Shown here piece after piece: positions 1-30,206 of a stretch of 38,657 nucleotides of DNA. Both the position numbers and the translations under genes were made by a program. The stretch's first letter is position 1, and each line of letters opens with the position of its first letter. Under the pieces are notes generated by a model, which was not told the origin of the DNA, did not search any database, and saw only the letters and a program-made list of their open reading frames with translations. The stretch is from Coriobacteriia bacterium (lineage in GTDB: Bacteria > Actinomycetota > Coriobacteriia > Coriobacteriales > JAEZZM01): NCBI GenBank assembly GCA_030532415.1, contig JAUNLE010000002.1:1-38657 (forward strand), read 5' to 3'.

Positions 1-602
1 CTCATTTTGTCAAATAATTTAATTCGATATAAGTAGAAGAGCGCAGCATGATAAAGAAAGCTTTCAGACCAAGCTGCAAGTAAATTTTTATCAATATACT
101 CTTCTTTAAGAATTTTATTTCTTTGCTGTAAAGTCTTTTCGAATTCTAATTTAATTTTTGAATAGTTTTTATGAAGTTGTATTCCAAAAACATCTAAACT
201 TTGTCTTCTTAAACCAGGTTGACCTTTAATGATTTGTAAATCATCTGGATAAAACAAAACACTGGGTAGAACTCCTCTAATTCCCCTGCTGTTAGTATTT
301 TTTCCATTTAATTTAAAAGTTTTTTTATCCTCTTCTATAAATAAATCTATTTCAATTGCCCTTAGTTCATTTTTAATTGACAAGCTTGCAGAACTTAATA
401 GCTCCACATCATGTAGTAAATTTTGAGCCTGCGGATTTCTAAAAGAAACACCGCTGGTAAGTAGTTGAATTGCTTCAATCGTGTTAGTTTTACCAATCGC
501 ATTAGGGCCTAACAAAATAGAAATATTGCTATCAAATTCAAAATACTTATGAGTAAAGTTCCTATAATTTTTTAGTTCGAGCGAATCTGCATACAGCTGC
601 AC
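1..602 (-). CDS. recF: RecF, DNA replication/repair ATPase (partial, 3' end outside window)
   Basis: An open frame runs leftward without a stop from a GTG at 602-600 to the window edge, about 200 codons. It begins MQLYADSLELKNYRNF and carries a Walker A motif, GPNAIGKTNT, near residue 32, as expected for the SMC-like ATPase RecF, which loads RecA at single-strand gaps. The later segment PSVLFYPDDLQIIKG matches the conserved RecF region around residue 110. The GTG start shares its G with the dnaN TAG stop, so the two genes are probably translationally coupled in the usual dnaA-dnaN-recF order. The Walker B and signature motifs lie outside the window. Identification is firm; the gene is cut only by the window. 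Confidence 0.93.
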   Translation of the reverse strand, partial: MQLYADSLELKNYRNFTHKYFEFDSNISILLGPNAIGKTNTIEAIQLLTSGVSFRNPQAQNLLHDVELLSSASLSIKNELRAIEIDLFIEEDKKTFKLNGKNTNSRGIRGVLPSVLFYPDDLQIIKGQPGLRRQSLDVFGIQLHKNYSKIKLEFEKTLQQRNKILKEEYIDKNLLAAWSESFLYHAALFYLYRIKLFDKM

Positions 603-1705
603 TAATTAATCCTTACAGGCATAACAAGGTAGAGGTAATTAATAGCACCATAGGATTTAAATATTCCTGGGCGAAGTGATGACTGTAGTTCTAAGTCAAG
701 CGATTCACTATCTTTGTAAGATAAGCCGTCTTGAACATAACTATAGTTGAAGGCAATATCCATGTTTTCACCTTCTATTTCAGCCGGAATAGATTCTTTT
801 GCTCCGCCTTGATCTGGTGTCTGTGCATAAAGCGTAAGCGTTTGGTTTTGAGCGTCGATTGAGAATTTAACAGGAGTAGCCTGACCTGCCATAACAGATA
901 CTCTATGCAGGGCATCTACTAAGTCATTGTTTGAAACACTTAATTTCGTTGCGCTTTCTTCTGGTATAAGTTGTTTGTAGTTAGGGAAATTACCTTCAAT
1001 CTTTCTTGCAATATACACCGTATTTTTGAAGGTGAAGACGATTTGATTAGACGTTTCACCTATTAATACATCCTCTTTTTCTCCCGCTAAAGAAAGTGCA
1101 TCATAAAAAACATTTGATGGAATAATTAATTCAAAATTACTCTCTAAGGAAGATGTTTCAACATTTGTATCTGCTATAGCAAGACGATATGAATCGGTTG
1201 CTACTAAACGAACGGTATTATTTTCGACTGTTAGCAAAATACCATTTAAAATTGCACGATTTTTATCAGTAGATGCAGCTTTTTTGACTTTGGATACCAT
1301 ATCCAACAAGAGTTGTGATGGCAATTGTACAGAAGTGTTTATTTCATAACTTGGAAATTCTTCAAAATCATCAGCCGACATCGTATTTAATTTAAAGTGA
1401 GCACGTTCACAATCTATTAAAAGTACGGTGTCTTCAAGGGTGAAAGTTATATTTGCATCAGGAAGAGACTTAATAATTTGAGCAAATACTTTACCAGGGA
1501 CTACACAGGCACCCTCTTCTTCAATAAGTGCTTGAATTTTATCTTGGATGGATATTTCTAAATCTGTTGATTGTAAAGTTAAATAAGGCTCTTTTGCAGA
1601 AAGGAGAATACCGGACAAAATAGGTAATCTTGAACTTGCAGCAATACCTTTCAAAGCAGTATTTACAGCAATGAGCAGAGTATCTTTGCTTACCGTAAAT
1701 TTCAT
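602..1705 (-). CDS. dnaN: DNA polymerase III subunit beta (sliding clamp)
   Basis: The product is the ring-shaped processivity clamp of the replicative polymerase. It starts MKFTVSKDTLLIAVNTALKG and ends YLYLVMPVRIN, the typical C-terminus of the family, and at about 367 residues is full length with three clamp domains. A TTG start six bases upstream (1711) is possible, but the sequence AAAGGA sits 8 bases before the ATG at 1705 and only about 3 before the TTG, so I prefer the ATG. It lies downstream of dnaA across a 235-base origin-like gap and overlaps recF by one base. Nothing is missing or broken. Confidence 0.97.
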   Translation of the reverse strand: MKFTVSKDTLLIAVNTALKGIAASSRLPILSGILLSAKEPYLTLQSTDLEISIQDKIQALIEEEGACVVPGKVFAQIIKSLPDANITFTLEDTVLLIDCERAHFKLNTMSADDFEEFPSYEINTSVQLPSQLLLDMVSKVKKAASTDKNRAILNGILLTVENNTVRLVATDSYRLAIADTNVETSSLESNFELIIPSNVFYDALSLAGEKEDVLIGETSNQIVFTFKNTVYIARKIEGNFPNYKQLIPEESATKLSVSNNDLVDALHRVSVMAGQATPVKFSIDAQNQTLTLYAQTPDQGGAKESIPAEIEGENMDIAFNYSYVQDGLSYKDSESLDLELQSSLRPGIFKSYGAINYLYLVMPVRIN

Positions 1706-1940: not shown

Positions 1941-2549
1941 CTAAGAACGCTCTCTAATTATTACTTTTAATTGTTCAATATCATCGTAAAATGTTCTATC
2001 TTCTTTCATTTTCTTTTCGATATTTCCAACCCCATTCATAATAGTAGTATGATCGCGGCCTCCAAATTTTTTTCCAATGGAAGCAAAAACTTCATCAGTT
2101 AGTTCACGAGATAAATACATAGCTATTTGTCTTGGGAAATTAATATTTTTTGTACGCTTTGAACCAATCATATCGTCATGTGACAAACCGTAACGTTTTT
2201 CTACCTCTCGCTGAATGGTTGCTATTTCAATTTTTTTACGCTGCGTGTCAAAAGCATCTTGAGCTAATTCAGTAATATCTTCGCGTGTTAGTTTATTACC
2301 GTTTCTATTTTTTGAGGTAGCAATAACCATTACCGATGTTAAAAATCCTTGTATTTCTCTGATGTTTGAGGATGAAAGTTCAGCAATATGTCTTAACATT
2401 TCATCCGAAATTTCAGCTTGATACCAAGATTCTGATTGAGAAGTTCTTTGATAGAAACTCTCTAGAATTGCGAGCTTCAATTCAAAACTAGGTGGTTGAA
2501 TATTCTGTGAGAGACCTGATTGAAATCGCGAAGTCATTCTTTCGTCCAT
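1941..2549 (-). CDS. dnaA: DnaA, C-terminal fragment (end of AAA+ domain plus DNA-binding domain IV)
   Basis: This frame continues DnaA in the same reading frame as the fragment at 2556-3473. It starts at the first ATG after an in-frame TAA (2558-2556), only two codons (Leu, Lys) later. It begins MDERMTSRFQSGLSQNIQPP, which is the DnaA box VII/arginine-finger segment followed by the lid. It ends with the domain IV DNA-binding signature GGRDHTTIMNGVGNIEKKM. It has no Walker A or B. Upstream of the ATG I see no convincing ribosome binding site, so expression would need stop readthrough or termination-reinitiation. The two pieces together give about 510 residues, a normal DnaA length. It is either a nonsense-mutated gene, a sequence error, or a genuinely split initiator. 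Confidence 0.9.
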   Translation of the reverse strand: MDERMTSRFQSGLSQNIQPPSFELKLAILESFYQRTSQSESWYQAEISDEMLRHIAELSSSNIREIQGFLTSVMVIATSKNRNGNKLTREDITELAQDAFDTQRKKIEIATIQREVEKRYGLSHDDMIGSKRTKNINFPRQIAMYLSRELTDEVFASIGKKFGGRDHTTIMNGVGNIEKKMKEDRTFYDDIEQLKVIIRERS

Positions 2550-2555
2550 CTTTAA

Positions 2556-3473
2556 TTATTTAGGAGATCTATCGGCCGATAAAACAATTTGTTTACCTTT
2601 AGAAATTAAAGATTCGAAAGTTGCAAAGAAATATTCCTGAGATTCATTCTTACCTTCAAAGAACTGAATATCATCAACCAGTAATACATCGACATTTCGG
2701 TAATGTTCCATGATAGGTTGACCAGTTTGTTTCTTTTTAGATTCAGCAATTTCACGGATATAGTCTTGTAAAAACTGTTCTGAAGTCACATATAAGGTTG
2801 TTTTTTCAGGATAAAATTCATTGATGTAGTTTTTTATTGCCATCAATAAATGGGTTTTACCAAGACCTGATTTTGAATATAAAAAGAAGGGATTAAACAT
2901 TCTACCTGGCATTTCTGCAACTTTTTGTGCAGATGCCATAGCAGCAGCATTTGAATCTCCAGCAATAAAGGTGTCGAAGGTTCTTGAATCTCTAATTATA
3001 TTTCTCTGACTTTTCCTTACTTGCATTTGAGGCGCCTGTTGTACAGGAGCTATCTCTTGGCTTGTACTTTCAGGTATTGAGTTTTGTATCCTAGCTGGAA
3101 TTTCTTCTTGCTTATTTTTCGCTGCATCAAGCGCGGGCGTTTCAGGCATTGCTGTCTGTATTTGATTAATTTGTTTTGTTTCTGCTTGATTATTGAGCTC
3201 TTTATTCAGTTCTTTGTATATTTCGGGATTAAATTGAGCGGTAAATGAAAAATCTTCTAAGGTAATGTCTTGCAAGCATTCTTCAATTTGTTTTTTGTAG
3301 TCTCTCATCACTACGTCAGCAGGCCATTGCAATTGAGATACACAAATTAAAGTTAAGTCCATGATTTTATAAGGCACGAGCTTTTCAAGCCACGCTAACA
3401 TTTTTACATCTTGATATTTTTGTCGGACTAATTCCAAAACATCCGACCATATTAAATGCGCACTGTTATCCAT
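2556..3473 (-). CDS. dnaA: DnaA, N-terminal fragment (domains I-III up to sensor 1), ends at an in-frame TAA
   Basis: This is the N-terminal 305 residues of the replication initiator. Domain I covers about residues 1-85, followed by a Gln/Pro/Glu-rich linker to about 160. The AAA+ domain then carries Walker A (SGLGKTHLL near residue 203), Walker B (DVLLVDDIQFF) and the sensor 1 strand KQIVLSADRSPK. There it stops at TAA, whereas the family continues straight into DERxxSRF, which is present in frame three codons further on. One G-to-T change (GAA to TAA) would explain the break, since many DnaA proteins have a charged residue here. The ATG at 3473 has AGG close upstream and lies 3 bases after the stop of the GHKL ATPase gene, implying an operon. 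Confidence 0.93.
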   Translation of the reverse strand: MDNSAHLIWSDVLELVRQKYQDVKMLAWLEKLVPYKIMDLTLICVSQLQWPADVVMRDYKKQIEECLQDITLEDFSFTAQFNPEIYKELNKELNNQAETKQINQIQTAMPETPALDAAKNKQEEIPARIQNSIPESTSQEIAPVQQAPQMQVRKSQRNIIRDSRTFDTFIAGDSNAAAMASAQKVAEMPGRMFNPFFLYSKSGLGKTHLLMAIKNYINEFYPEKTTLYVTSEQFLQDYIREIAESKKKQTGQPIMEHYRNVDVLLVDDIQFFEGKNESQEYFFATFESLISKGKQIVLSADRSPK

Positions 3474-4334: not shown

Positions 4335-4374
4335 ACCTGTTTTCCTCCCCTCTTTTTAATTTTTCATCAAAAAC

Positions 4375-4403
4375 ACTATCAACATACTATGTGGAAAACT
4401 CAA
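4375..4403 (-). promoter_or_regulatory. Candidate promoter of the GHKL-dnaA operon with an overlapping DnaA-box-like site
   Basis: On the minus strand TTGAGT (4403-4398) and GATAGT (4380-4375) are spaced by 17 bases, about 40 bases before the GHKL gene start. The spacer contains TTTTCCACA (4398-4390), a relaxed DnaA box, which would fit autoregulation of dnaA. The -10 is a weak match, so this is tentative. Confidence 0.4.
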
Positions 4404-4831
4404 ATCAATAAAAGATAAGCTCAGGAACGAATAAGCCCAGCTTATTTCATATTTTTCCATTATGAAAACCATGCTTATACAGAGCTTTTCCAAGTTATTA
4501 ACAAAGTTTTCCATCTTTGTGGAAAAAGATGTAGAAAAATGAGTAAAAATTGGAAAAAGCCAGTAAAATTTTTCTCTCAAAATGGAAAAGAGATGAAAAA
4601 TATTAAAAAGTTGAAAACTCATTATTTCATAAATATGAATATCTGCTTATATTTATGCATTATTAAAAAGCTTTCCAGTACTTTTAAATATTTTTATTGA
4701 TTTATCAAGTTTCTCATCTAGTGTGTACTGAATTCTATCATTAAAATTGTGGAAATCTTCTCACTCTATGGATAATTTTAAAATTTCTTAGTTCACAAGC
4801 CGTTATTCATGTACTATTAGAACAATGTTTA

Positions 4832-4861
4832 TTGACTAAAATGCAAGATAAAAGATATAAT
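4832..4861 (+). promoter_or_regulatory. Promoter of the rpmH-rnpA operon
   Basis: TTGACT (4832-4837) and a perfect TATAAT (4856-4861) are separated by 18 bases, about 50 bases upstream of the rpmH ATG. A DnaA-box-like TTATCTACA (4870-4878) lies immediately downstream, near the expected transcription start, which could tie expression to DnaA. Confidence 0.75.
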
Positions 4862-4911
4862 TCGTAAGCTTATCTACATATGCATTAGTTTTTTTGGAGG
4901 AAAGCAAGACA

Positions 4912-5055
4912 ATGAAACGTACTTATCAGCCTAATAAGCGCAAAAGAGCTAAAACTCATGGCTTTCGCGCTCGTATGGCAACTGCAGGCGGACGCAAAGT
5001 GTTAGCAGCACGTCGTGCTAAAGGCCGCAAGAGATTAACGGTTTCTGATAACTAA
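4912..5055 (+). CDS. rpmH: Ribosomal protein bL34
   Basis: A 47-codon gene, below usual ORF length cut-offs, encodes [20 protein letters not shown] and continues with the basic [17 protein letters not shown] tail, diagnostic of 50S protein L34. GGAGG (4897-4900 and neighbours) precedes the ATG. It is the first gene of the rightward origin operon, with rnpA starting 6 bases after its stop, the near-universal bacterial order. The very basic composition is normal for the family. Confidence 0.98.
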
Positions 5056-9739: not shown

Positions 9740-9784
9740 CTTTTTATTAATCAACACATGCCTTTATTTAATAGAGGAGTAAAT

Positions 9785-11623
9785 GTGGCATTACAGTTAT
9801 ATGGCATCAAAAATTATAGAAATGCAAAACTTGCGATTGCTACTATTCTCAAAAGTTCTCTAGAGCGCTATCAGAATAGTTATCTTGTGTTTGACGGGTA
9901 TTATACCGAGGAGTTTTTACTCGCTGAAATAGAAGAAGGATTTAAAGTTCAAAGCTTCTCTAAGCTTGGCTTTCTTGCATTTTTATCAAATCTTATACAT
10001 AGCGAAAAGCTTTTAACAAATAAACAGGAGATTAATCATCTTGTTAATAGTTATCTTAAAAAAAGACAATTAGAACATGACAAGATTCTTGCGTATAAAT
10101 TAAAATCACTAGCACTACGATATGATCCTTATGATGAGGAAATATCCTTACCACAAGATGACATGCATGAGCTTAGAGAATTAGCGCGTTTTGCACATGA
10201 TTTAAATTGTAGGCTTCCATATCAAGACCTTAATGAACTTAAAATACCCGACAACTCCCAGTTAATATTTCTTAGTTCAGCAAAACTGGATGATGCATTT
10301 CATTTATTTCTTAACAAACATAAGGATACATGTGCTATAGAAGTTATTTCTTTAGATCCTGAAGCTCACATTGCAAATGCTGTTTTCGAGAATGCTTATT
10401 CAGAATATAAAGAATTAGCTTCTCAAGTAGTATCAATAGAGCAAGATGAGCCCTTTACGTCTAATGAGCTTAAGCTTATCAATAAGCATTTATATTCAAG
10501 TACCATAAATTTGAAAGCTCAGAGGGACTTTCATTTAATACTAGCTCATGGTAGGGAATCTCTTGTATATGCGGCAGCTAAGCAGGCGAATGAATACATA
10601 CAAGAAGGATTAAACATTGGCATTGCGCTTAGTGAATCCTCATATCTTAAACGTCTGCTACAGGAGCTGGAACTAAACGGATTAGAGGCAAGAAATCTAT
10701 TTGGAGAAGATCTGCTGCATTCCAATCTATTTTCGATAGTTATATCAACAATAAAATTTATCTATCTTGAGAGCTACGAAGACTTTTTAGGCTTTGTTCG
10801 ATATCTTGATGCTAAAACTACTCAAAATCTCTTAGACCTATACTTTTATAGTGAACCTCCTCAGATAATATCAGCTCTTACTAAGGAGTTAGAGGCAATA
10901 AACCAGGATGCATATAAAGTTTTACGTGAAACACGCGCTATCCTAAGTGAAGTTGACGATGTTGTGCAAGAAGACATTCATAAGCTTTTAGAAGACTTCA
11001 GGCAACTGTTAGGTAAAAAAGAAGAGGACTTTGTAGTTCAGAAGATACTTGAGAAAACATTATGGAGATCAGTCAAGTTAGCTCAAACTTTTAAGACTAA
11101 TGTTGATATGGAAGAGCTTATACAAGTACTGGAAAGCTTAAAACTCCATGAAGATAGTAATGATGCACAAGTCACAATATTTGACGGAACCATTCCATTA
11201 TTTGAAGACTTTGATAGTTTGATAGTTTTAGATTTAAATGCTGAATCTTATCCTTCATTTAAGCCAAATCAAGCCTTAGAAATATATTTAGATCAACATG
11301 GTTTACCTGCTCTATCTGACTTTTCATTAGAGAGAAAATTAGATTTTCACCATCTTTTAGCTAGGGGAAAACAAAAGCTTTGTTTGATGAAAAATGATAT
11401 TACACGCAATGGAACAGGCCTACAGTCCTCATTATTTTTAAATGAAGTTCTTGACTTGTATTTGAGTGATGAGGAAAGTGAGAAAACGAAAGAAGTTCCT
11501 GAAAATCTTTATGAAGCTGGAGTTGTTATAGAGTTTAGCGACTCAGACCTTGCTCGGGTTAGTCCTTCGGCATCGCAAATAAGCAGGTCAAAGAAAATTA
11601 TGATGCAAAATGGTGAGGCTTAA
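9785..11623 (+). CDS. addB: AddB-like protein, N-terminal fragment (inactive helicase-like part), ends at an in-frame TAA
   Basis: I place the start at the GTG at 9785 (MALQLYGIKNYRNAKL), because AGAGGAG (9773-9779) lies 5 bases upstream. An ATG at 9758 in the same frame has no such site. The 612 residues resemble the helicase-like half of AddB/RexB and lack a Walker A motif, as is common for AddB-type subunits that have lost motor activity. Segments such as IGIALSESSYLKRLLQELEL and FDSLIVLDLNAESYP fit UvrD-like domains. It ends at TAA (11621-11623), immediately followed in frame by the nuclease part. Together they would give about 930 residues, near full AddB length. Identification rests on context (addA downstream) plus the nuclease half. 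Confidence 0.75.
   Translation: MALQLYGIKNYRNAKLAIATILKSSLERYQNSYLVFDGYYTEEFLLAEIEEGFKVQSFSKLGFLAFLSNLIHSEKLLTNKQEINHLVNSYLKKRQLEHDKILAYKLKSLALRYDPYDEEISLPQDDMHELRELARFAHDLNCRLPYQDLNELKIPDNSQLIFLSSAKLDDAFHLFLNKHKDTCAIEVISLDPEAHIANAVFENAYSEYKELASQVVSIEQDEPFTSNELKLINKHLYSSTINLKAQRDFHLILAHGRESLVYAAAKQANEYIQEGLNIGIALSESSYLKRLLQELELNGLEARNLFGEDLLHSNLFSIVISTIKFIYLESYEDFLGFVRYLDAKTTQNLLDLYFYSEPPQIISALTKELEAINQDAYKVLRETRAILSEVDDVVQEDIHKLLEDFRQLLGKKEEDFVVQKILEKTLWRSVKLAQTFKTNVDMEELIQVLESLKLHEDSNDAQVTIFDGTIPLFEDFDSLIVLDLNAESYPSFKPNQALEIYLDQHGLPALSDFSLERKLDFHHLLARGKQKLCLMKNDITRNGTGLQSSLFLNEVLDLYLSDEESEKTKEVPENLYEAGVVIEFSDSDLARVSPSASQISRSKKIMMQNGEA
10918..10933. promoter_or_regulatory. Possible second parS-like site
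   Basis: AGTTTTACGTGAAACA inside the addB-like gene matches the canonical 16-base parS at 14 of 16 positions (mismatches at positions 1 and 6). It lies about 3.1 kb from the perfect site. A chance match inside coding DNA is possible. Confidence 0.35.
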
Positions 11624-12583
11624 ATGAATCGTATTAAGAAACGGATAGAGGACCCACAAGCTTTATCAAGCATAAAAAAACTCAGAATAAGCGCCTCTTC
11701 TATCGAGAGCTATCGTGCCTGTCCGTATAGATGGTTCGTAAGTTATGCGCTTAAAACGAATTCATATCAAAAGAGTTTAAATGCCCAGCTCAAAGGTTGT
11801 ATTGCGCATGATGTAATCAGTAAATTCTTAGGCGAACAGTCTTTTGAACATAAAGAACTTCTAGGGAACATAGAGGAAGCTCAAATACATCTTGGTGAAA
11901 TTTACGACTCGGTTTTTAATCAGTATTTAGAGCGAGATTTTAAGAATGTGGAAATCAACTCCAATATAATTGATGAATTTAAACAATTAAAAAATAAACT
12001 TCAAAACTACCTTTATTTTGAAGCACAGAGTTTTTTAGGTTTCGAAAATTTTGCGAATGAAATTGATGATGTGGGCACGTATGCGGGTGTCGAAATAAGG
12101 TACCGTCCCGATAGGCTTATCACACGTGGTGATACCTTCATAGTTATTGACTACAAGCTAGGTACTGGAGACATTAAACCGTATTGGGATGAAATCGGAA
12201 AAATAAAGGTCCAAACAGCAATATATGCAAAGTTACTTGAAGAAAAAATAAATAAACGCTGTATTGCCTGCTTATACATACCATTTTCAAATGGCGACAA
12301 ACAAAGCTCAAATAAAGTTGGGGGAGCAATAGACGGAGAATTTCTTAAGAGTCATGAAATTCATATAAGCAAGCGCAAGTATGATGACCTCATTGTTCAA
12401 AAAAATCGTGAGGAATTACAAGTTGAAAACTTTGCTTCATATTTAACTATGGTAGAAGAGCAGGTTAGCGAGGATATACTGCACATGCAATCTGGAATTA
12501 TCGATAAATATCCAGGAAATCCAAAAGGAGCTTACTGTCCAATACTGGATACCTGCGGATTATGCAAAAAGGTTGAATACTAA
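11624..12583 (+). CDS. addB: AddB-like protein, C-terminal PD-(D/E)XK iron-sulfur nuclease fragment
   Basis: The ATG at 11624 directly follows the TAA of the upstream fragment, in the same frame, with GGTGAGG 5 bases before it. This frame therefore has its own plausible ribosome site. The 319 residues carry a RecB-type nuclease: SYRACPYRWF near residue 30, IAHDVISKFL, YRPDRLITRGDTFIVIDYKLGTGD (D and DYK catalytic motif) and KVQTAIYAKLL (QxxxY motif), quoted in parts. Cysteines at 33, 305, 311 and 314 are candidate [4Fe-4S] ligands. Their C-terminal spacing is C-x5-C-x2-C rather than the C-x2-C-x5-C of Bacillus AddB. It is 2 bases upstream of addA, so coupling is likely. Confidence 0.8.
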   Translation: MNRIKKRIEDPQALSSIKKLRISASSIESYRACPYRWFVSYALKTNSYQKSLNAQLKGCIAHDVISKFLGEQSFEHKELLGNIEEAQIHLGEIYDSVFNQYLERDFKNVEINSNIIDEFKQLKNKLQNYLYFEAQSFLGFENFANEIDDVGTYAGVEIRYRPDRLITRGDTFIVIDYKLGTGDIKPYWDEIGKIKVQTAIYAKLLEEKINKRCIACLYIPFSNGDKQSSNKVGGAIDGEFLKSHEIHISKRKYDDLIVQKNREELQVENFASYLTMVEEQVSEDILHMQSGIIDKYPGNPKGAYCPILDTCGLCKKVEY

Positions 12584-27332: not shown

Positions 27333-30206
27333 ATGGTAGACGTTTTAAAATACGTTCATTACCTGAGTGAAGAAATTGGCGTTCGACCCGCTAATACAGA
27401 AGAAGAATATTATGCTTCAAGCGAGATTGAAAAGCTGATGCGCGAGCACGGGGTTGAAACGATTGTTCAAGAATTCCAAGTTCCAACCTTTGCTAACTTA
27501 TCGTATGCAATCTGTTTTGTGGGAATGTTTCTCACCGCAGCGCTTTCAGGAATTAACTCCATACTTTCTATTATTACCTTCGTATTTTCGTTGATATTTT
27601 TAGGCCTGTTTATTGCAGAGCGCTTTGAAAAAGGGCTTCTTTCTAAATTGGGCACGTCCGGTGTGAGCCAAAATGTCATTGCTCGCCACCCAGGACAGAA
27701 AACCGATAGCGAACGTAGAGTTCGACCTATTGTGGTACTTGCTAATTACGACAGCCCAAAAGCAGACCTCTTATCAAATCCAACATTTTCTGGCTTTAAG
27801 CCTATGCTGGTAAAATTGGTTAATATCTTAATGCTTGTAGTTCCTGTTATTAACCTGCTTCATGCGATTGCGGTTTTACCACTAGGATTTAGAAATTTCC
27901 TATGGGCGCTTTCTATTGTCGCAGCGCTTCCTATTTTACTGTTAGGTGTTAATCTTTTAATTTCTCACTTTGCACTAGGCTATGTTCACGGAGCAAACGA
28001 CAATGCATCGGGTGTGGCAGCTATGATGGGAATTCTTGATCACACCGATCCTTTAGGCCTTAAAGCTCCTAAAAATCTTGCTTCAAATCAAGTTGTGCTC
28101 GAAGATGGCACTTCAGTGAGCTTTGAGCAAATTCAAGAAGTTGCCGAGCAAATGTCTCTTGAGCAGAAGAAAAAAGAGAAAGATTTCGAAAAGATTTCAA
28201 AAGATTTATCAAAAAGCTCGGCTGAACAGCAGGTACTTATATCTAAAGATAAGTCAATTCGCCGTGGCGCTGGTGTAGCAAGAGCTGCTGGCGTTTTACC
28301 AGAAGGCGTTGAAATTGTTTATACCAATGAAGATGCGCTGCTTGAGAAGGGCAAGAAAGCGTTAGCCTTAGTTGAGCAAACGCAGGAACTAAGCCTACCT
28401 TTGCAAGCTGATGAACAAGCACAAGAAAATGCAGCTCAAGCACACGAGGCTGAGCTTGAAGAAAAGACAGCAGAGCCTAAAGATACTGAAGAAGCGCTCA
28501 GTGCACGCGACCGATACCTTCAAGCAATGGCTGAAAAAGAGGCGCTTGAGGCTGAACGTCGCAAGAAGCTTGAAGAGAAAAATGCTGCAGAAGCAGCTCT
28601 TGCCAGACAAAAACCTGATCGTCCAAAGCCTCCAAAAGATGAGGACGGTAACGTTCAAGTTCGTTCACGCTTTGCAGATCTTCCAATCAAAAAATCTTTT
28701 GATGAAGATCCACAAGTGTCAAAGGTAAGCTACGAGCCAGATGCACCTACGAATACTGACACTTTAGATACTGCGTATAATAATCAGTCGCAAAATGTGG
28801 AACAAAGAGATGAATCACGTAGCGTTCCACAAAATAGGCCTGAAAAACCTGTATTAACTTTAGTGGGCGAAGAACCTGCAAAGGTAGAAGAAAAGAAGAT
28901 ACAGAGCGCAGAAGATGTCGAGGCTGCTCCTAGTTTCGACTTTAACTTAGAAGATAATGCAAAAATTCCGAACTATGACCCAGAAAAAGCAGTTCAAGAT
29001 GCTCTTGATGCAGGCAAACTAAATGACGAGCCTCATAAATTTGAGCCAGCTCCTTCACGCGTTCGCCAAATTGATACCTTAGGTATAGAGGATACGCGCG
29101 AGCAAGTCGAACAAAGTAGTGCACAAAAAATGCTTGAAGATGACCCAACCTGGGGTCGTACGAATTTCAATCCAAGCAAGCACATTAATATTTTGGATGT
29201 TCCAGACCCTTCCCTCAAAGAACAAGATCCATATGAGAGCAGTAATATTACCTATATGGATGACATCAACTTTAATCCTGAGGATTTTCCTGCAGATGAA
29301 TTTGAAAAGGGCGCCTATGAGTCGCAGCGAAATTCGCGCTCATCACGACGCAGCGAGCCTCAGATAAATATGCCTAAAGACAACGTTTTCCAGCGTTTTA
29401 GCAATCAGGTTGGAAAGCTTTTCAAAGGTAAAAATAAAGAGGAAGATGAAACATTCTCGGACTGGCTTGGCGTTGACGAAGATTTTGATGCTAAAAAAGA
29501 CGGTCGAAAGATTGGCTCCTGGGATAATTTCGATGATGATCAAGATAACTGGAGAGGTGGAGGTACCAAGGGCTATTCTGATGAAGAACGCGAGAATCTC
29601 CAGAAGAACTCTCTAGACCAAGACGATGACTTGGCTCAAACACCAGATAAAGATGGACAAGGTCCTGCTGACCAACAGCTAGCAGCCACTGAACAAGTTC
29701 GCGAACTTTCTGACAATGACCAAAAACAAATCCGTGATTATGTTATGTCCATGAGTGACTCAGACTTAGCAAGTCACGAGATTTGGTATGTTGCAACAGG
29801 AGCTTCCGATTTAAGAAATGCAGGAGCACGTGCCTTCTTTGAGGAGTATTCAAGTGAACTTCGCGGTGCACTTGTTATTAACTTAAAAGCCGTAGGTGCC
29901 GGTCAACTTTCAGTTTTAAGCAAAGAAGGAGCCTCACAAAGCAGAAATGGCGACCGCAGACTTATCAATATCGTGAAAAAGGTTGGTAAGGAATTCAACC
30001 GTCCTGTTACAGCAGTTGATATGAGCTGGATGAGCACAGATGCAACCGTTGCTATGCAGTCTGGTCATCGCTCAGTAACTATAGCTGGTACCGATCACGG
30101 TGTTATTACCGCAAGTGCATGGGCTGGAGATATAGTCGATATCGTAGACGAAGATCAAATCCGTGACGTTATCGATATTGTTGTAGAAACCATCAGAAGA
30201 TCTTAA
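27333..30206 (+). CDS. M28-peptidase-like polytopic membrane protein with long disordered insert; predicted catalytically inactive
   Basis: The 957-residue protein has an M28-like start (YLSEEIGVRPA) with four membrane segments (about 55-95 and 158-212). It retains GANDNASGVAAMM near residue 220, a known M28 zinc-ligand Asp region. Other catalytic sites look altered. The usual AHYDS reads ANYDS at about 137-141. The usual EE in TGAEE reads TGASD at about 822-826. The terminal zinc His is absent from TASAWAGDIVD. Between about residue 240 and 800 lies a charged, low-complexity, largely disordered insert (Glu/Lys/Gln/Asp-rich) that splits the domain. It is expressed with the 493-residue gene upstream and the RCK pair downstream. 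It is most likely a pseudo-peptidase scaffold; the function is unknown. Confidence 0.75.
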   Translation: MVDVLKYVHYLSEEIGVRPANTEEEYYASSEIEKLMREHGVETIVQEFQVPTFANLSYAICFVGMFLTAALSGINSILSIITFVFSLIFLGLFIAERFEKGLLSKLGTSGVSQNVIARHPGQKTDSERRVRPIVVLANYDSPKADLLSNPTFSGFKPMLVKLVNILMLVVPVINLLHAIAVLPLGFRNFLWALSIVAALPILLLGVNLLISHFALGYVHGANDNASGVAAMMGILDHTDPLGLKAPKNLASNQVVLEDGTSVSFEQIQEVAEQMSLEQKKKEKDFEKISKDLSKSSAEQQVLISKDKSIRRGAGVARAAGVLPEGVEIVYTNEDALLEKGKKALALVEQTQELSLPLQADEQAQENAAQAHEAELEEKTAEPKDTEEALSARDRYLQAMAEKEALEAERRKKLEEKNAAEAALARQKPDRPKPPKDEDGNVQVRSRFADLPIKKSFDEDPQVSKVSYEPDAPTNTDTLDTAYNNQSQNVEQRDESRSVPQNRPEKPVLTLVGEEPAKVEEKKIQSAEDVEAAPSFDFNLEDNAKIPNYDPEKAVQDALDAGKLNDEPHKFEPAPSRVRQIDTLGIEDTREQVEQSSAQKMLEDDPTWGRTNFNPSKHINILDVPDPSLKEQDPYESSNITYMDDINFNPEDFPADEFEKGAYESQRNSRSSRRSEPQINMPKDNVFQRFSNQVGKLFKGKNKEEDETFSDWLGVDEDFDAKKDGRKIGSWDNFDDDQDNWRGGGTKGYSDEERENLQKNSLDQDDDLAQTPDKDGQGPADQQLAATEQVRELSDNDQKQIRDYVMSMSDSDLASHEIWYVATGASDLRNAGARAFFEEYSSELRGALVINLKAVGAGQLSVLSKEGASQSRNGDRRLINIVKKVGKEFNRPVTAVDMSWMSTDATVAMQSGHRSVTIAGTDHGVITASAWAGDIVDIVDEDQIRDVIDIVVETIRRS

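Follow-up and report, generated by a model that had tools for sequence, protein, structure and literature searches.

An in-frame TAA in the dnaA gene of a draft Coriobacteriia genome: most likely a one-base error or stray variant in an ordinary initiator gene

The closest described counterparts of the gene analyzed here are the DnaA family as represented by the profile TIGR00362 (437 positions) and, with respect to structure, B. subtilis DnaA (pdb code 8btg). In a literature search covering titles and abstracts, no functional DnaA that is naturally split or interrupted by a stop was found among the entries listed. The sequence under study (the window) comprises the first 38,657 bases of a contig of 54,907 bases, which belongs to a draft genome of 1.41 Mb (97 contigs, 94% complete). 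Its dnaA gene occupies positions 3473..1941 of the minus strand and contains, according to the sequence and the list of open reading frames (ORFs), one in-frame TAA at 2558-2556, which is followed in the same frame by Leu-Lys and an ATG at position 2549. The deposited sequence thus does not encode a single uninterrupted DnaA polypeptide; if the stop is read through, the frame consists of 511 codons. The initial annotation had described exactly this arrangement, i.e. two pieces separated by one TAA, the Leu-Lys and the ATG in the same frame, and had stated that the total length is normal and that nothing is lost. Our analysis agrees in all these points: The N piece covers positions 1-245 of TIGR00362 and the C piece positions 250-434, so no part of DnaA is missing. 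As the two long ORFs follow each other as successive portions of a single known protein, the gene structure is far from chance. Table 1 lists the features of the region.

Table 1. Features of the dnaA region (positions in the window)
Feature	Position	Strand	Description	Basis
dnaN (sliding clamp)	602..1705	-	Downstream of dnaA; intact	ORF list; identity by position and sequence read by eye
dnaA C piece	1941..2549	-	202 aa, beginning with the Met of MDERMTSRF; contains the arginine-finger motif, the lid and DNA-binding domain IV	ORF, Bac_DnaA_C, TIGR00362
In-frame TAA stop of dnaA	2556..2558	-		Sequence; one stop within the profile match; alignment with PDB 8btg
dnaA N piece	2559..3473	-	305 aa; comprises domains I-II and the AAA+ core as far as sensor 1	ORF, Pfam Bac_DnaA, TIGR00362
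Gene upstream of dnaA	3477..4334	-	285 aa; HATPase_c and winged-helix domains	ORF list, Pfam
Probable oriC	4335..4912		Separates rpmH from the dnaA operon; contains the TTTTCCA motif seven times, twice as TTTTCCACA; GC-skew switch	

As had been proposed, Walker A and Walker B are located in the N piece, the arginine-finger motif and the DNA-binding domain in the C piece. The N piece matches Bac_DnaA (PF00308, E 2.5e-49) and contains an AAA+ ATPase domain of this type; Walker B and sensor 1 are intact, and Walker A reads SKSGLGKT, i.e. it has a serine in place of the first glycine. The C piece matches Bac_DnaA_C (PF08299, E 1.2e-25) and carries at the C-terminus the DnaA-box-binding helix-turn-helix with the signature GGRDHTT. 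In terms of the usual structural labels of DnaA, the stop follows the sensor 1 strand and precedes the arginine-finger motif. In the alignment with 8btg (B. subtilis DnaA) it is bracketed by residues 252 and 258, and the spacing assigns it to residue 253; it directly follows PPK (252 in B. subtilis DnaA), ahead of the arginine-finger motif.

Among the genomes compared, the family is represented by this one only, and the comparisons were made with dnaA genes of the order and the phylum. A search for contigs of close relatives returned only distant Bacteroidaceae, and a copy of the dnaA junction was sought in viral contigs and not found. With 15 distinct relatives kept in the alignment, the C piece carries the invariant residue in 25 of 25 columns, the N piece in 31 of 35. 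The complete conservation of the C piece means that any loss of dnaA is either very recent or unreal; judged by these columns, everything downstream of the stop appears to be still constrained. Besides the TAA, neither the ORFs nor the profile match revealed another lesion in dnaA. At four invariant columns the N piece deviates (V to I, L to F, I to L, and G to S). The last of these changes affects the first glycine of Walker A (~2850-2890, minus strand), a residue shared by all 15 relatives in the alignment, and the exchanges L to F and I to L cluster with it at the P loop, where they alter two invariant columns neighbouring the Walker A serine. This group of three changes looks more like lineage evolution than like recent damage. 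The stop site itself is a variable polar loop position, which is occupied by D, E, N or K in the aligned relatives. For two of these residues, a single substitution can convert a codon into TAA, which we counted in favor of a one-base error or variant. The earlier guess of a GAA-to-TAA change is reasonable, although the codon is not fixed, given these four residues in the relatives.

Three explanations had been offered initially, namely an assembly error, readthrough of the stop, and reinitiation at the nearby ATG; our results favor the first. In the case of reinitiation, the N chain would stop at the TAA, ribosomes would restart at the ATG, and the two chains would reassemble the AAA+ module, the C chain providing arginine finger, lid, and DNA-binding domain. 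Several properties of the locus suit such a two-chain DnaA: both pieces are in the same frame and keep their motifs, the ATG is reached within 6 bases, zero residues are lost, the break falls in a variable loop, and only one dnaA was found in the draft genome. However, the ATG 6 bases past the stop encodes the ordinary methionine of the DnaA motif MDER or MDDR. Nearly all aligned relatives have this methionine, and a leucine occurs only in L007 and L008. The presence of the ATG is therefore explained without the stop, and its closeness to the TAA is no sign of adaptation. Moreover, the anti-Shine-Dalgarno pairing computed for the 22 bases ahead of the ATG is +0.2 kcal/mol, whereas the majority of the other genes in the window reach values from -4 to -13. 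By this test, there is no Shine-Dalgarno sequence before the C-piece ATG and no ribosome-binding site for the second chain of a split initiator; reinitiation is possible without such a site, and nothing positive points to it. Finally, none of the other dnaA genes among the ~150 matches listed from the order (301 genomes) contains a stop, i.e. no relative in this set has a split dnaA. For these reasons we regard reinitiation as unlikely. A natural two-chain DnaA, whose AAA+ core would be cut after sensor 1 and whose arginine finger would come from a separately translated C chain, is likewise unlikely.

Readthrough implies that the TAA is real and is decoded at some rate by a suppressor or near-cognate tRNA, so that a small amount of full-length DnaA would be made. 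The gene dnaA is expected to be essential, and the fully conserved C piece is in agreement with such a mechanism. However, no suppressor tRNA was detected among the tRNA genes found, a set from which several expected tRNAs are missing in the draft. Of the 26 intact genes of the window, 17 end with TAA, which is thus used there more often than the other stop codons; for this reason, a recoded TAA was rejected. In addition, no other conserved gene read through at TAA was recognised in ~707 kb of the same genome. The tRNA genes found and the ORF pairs judged by eye thus gave no indication of stop reassignment or suppression, and we consider readthrough very unlikely. The scan for in-frame stops compared adjacent same-frame ORFs by eye in these ~707 kb of other contigs, which is about half of the genome, and is blind to frameshifts. 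Within this portion, no further nonsense codon in a conserved gene was recognised except for two TGA codons of the selenocysteine type. The latter lie in frame within the motif HQARI-TGA-H of two formate dehydrogenase genes (L111:418-420; L150, TGA at 2196, minus strand). As a tRNA-Sec gene is also present (L087:7946-8042), the organism probably uses selenocysteine.

A real TAA might also signal that dnaA is newly dead and that either a further dnaA copy resides in the portion absent from the draft or replication is initiated independently of DnaA. Some bacteria live without dnaA, the draft is incomplete (94%, 97 contigs), and the Walker A serine together with the two changed invariant columns next to it was counted in favor of this reading. 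In contrast, a complete second dnaA, the existence of which had been considered in the initial annotation, was not found when the 94% complete draft was searched with Pfam Bac_DnaA and at the DNA level; the interrupted gene is the sole DnaA detected there. Nor does the C piece show decay. The origin region likewise argues against a dead initiator: The seven TTTTCCA motifs of the probable oriC compare with a mean of 0.30 in 2000 Markov shuffles, none of which reached seven, and the GC skew changes its sign near 4-5 kb. Because these clustered motifs and the skew switch are retained upstream of dnaA, a DnaA-dependent origin seems to be maintained. A recent death of dnaA is accordingly judged improbable.

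An indication of how often dnaA is interrupted in deposited sequences comes from the phylum, where 147 of 150 genomes have dnaA. Besides the genome studied here, one of the remaining 146 (G304) has an in-frame TAA in a full-length dnaA, which gives a rough base rate for nonsense codons in this gene. In G304 (L162, G304:C39; the only matched dnaA there), the single TAA replaces a conserved tyrosine directly before Walker A. A split or restart product could not work there, as it could not give an ATPase, and an error or a stray variant is the best interpretation of this stop. Single stops in dnaA therefore occur as background. In two genomes of the comparison, the surroundings of dnaA are worth mentioning: G304 also has a similar gene with HATPase_c and winged-helix domains preceding dnaA, which makes it a conserved neighbour, and G387 possesses, beside an intact dnaA, another stretch of weak similarity to DnaA that is interrupted by four stops (G387:C109:10459-11097), probably a decayed paralogue. 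In the intact genes of the window, 4.6% of single substitutions create a stop. Assuming that the consensus contains 1e-5 to 3e-5 errors per base, one would expect 0.6-1.7 false nonsense codons in each genome. That no more nonsense was recognised in conserved genes of the ~707 kb fits this rate; one or two such events per genome are therefore unremarkable.

A second gene of the window is split in a comparable manner. The addB-like gene (9758-12583) is cut by a TAA at 11621-11623, immediately followed by an ATG. The break lies in a poorly conserved linker ahead of a PD-(D/E)XK nuclease domain, which is carried by the second part; nearly all relatives found in the order have the gene as one frame of ~850 to 1280 codons. 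As the ATG shows good anti-Shine-Dalgarno pairing (-6.4 kcal/mol) and the break is located in this linker, a true gene fission is plausible in the case of the addB-like gene, which in these points is unlike dnaA. Two same-frame TAA breaks 9 kb apart, with none recognised in the other contigs sampled, are slightly more clustered than random errors would be. We counted this against an error in dnaA, and it leaves a small doubt about pure chance. Further downstream, positions 27333-30206 encode a protein of 957 residues, whose sole Pfam match is an M28 peptidase in the C-terminal part (816-922), preceded by a long charged stretch.

Given the constrained C piece, the lack of any other lesion, the background case of G304, and the 0.6-1.7 false nonsense codons expected, this is probably an ordinary dnaA whose stop stems from a one-base sequencing or assembly error, or from a minor variant of low frequency (non-viable or strain-specific). 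We infer that the base in question is incorrect or belongs to a minority. Such an error or minority variant would have entered the deposited consensus and produced the nonsense codon, whereas the living population would most likely possess dnaA as one uninterrupted gene acting at the adjacent oriC. Besides the clustering with the addB-like break, we counted against an error that the loop after sensor 1 is one of the less destructive places for an interruption. A new two-part replication starter is nevertheless less likely than a one-letter error or a stray variant. A stop that is real and fixed would mean that an essential initiator works as two chains or via readthrough, which would come as a surprise to researchers studying replication initiation. 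The case shows that a single-base nonsense codon in a draft genome can mimic biological novelty.

The comparison with the G304 gene, which stems from a draft genome of another family of the same phylum, reveals a likeness and a difference. In both cases a single TAA interrupts an otherwise full-length, conserved dnaA; in G304 the stop is at the tyrosine before Walker A and unworkable for a split, whereas in the window it is located in the loop after sensor 1. Compared with B. subtilis DnaA, the gene of the window differs by the TAA at the position of residue 253 and by the serine replacing the first glycine of Walker A. Like the DnaA described by TIGR00362 and by the B. subtilis structure, it has all domains and motifs in order, and it adjoins dnaN and an oriC-like region.
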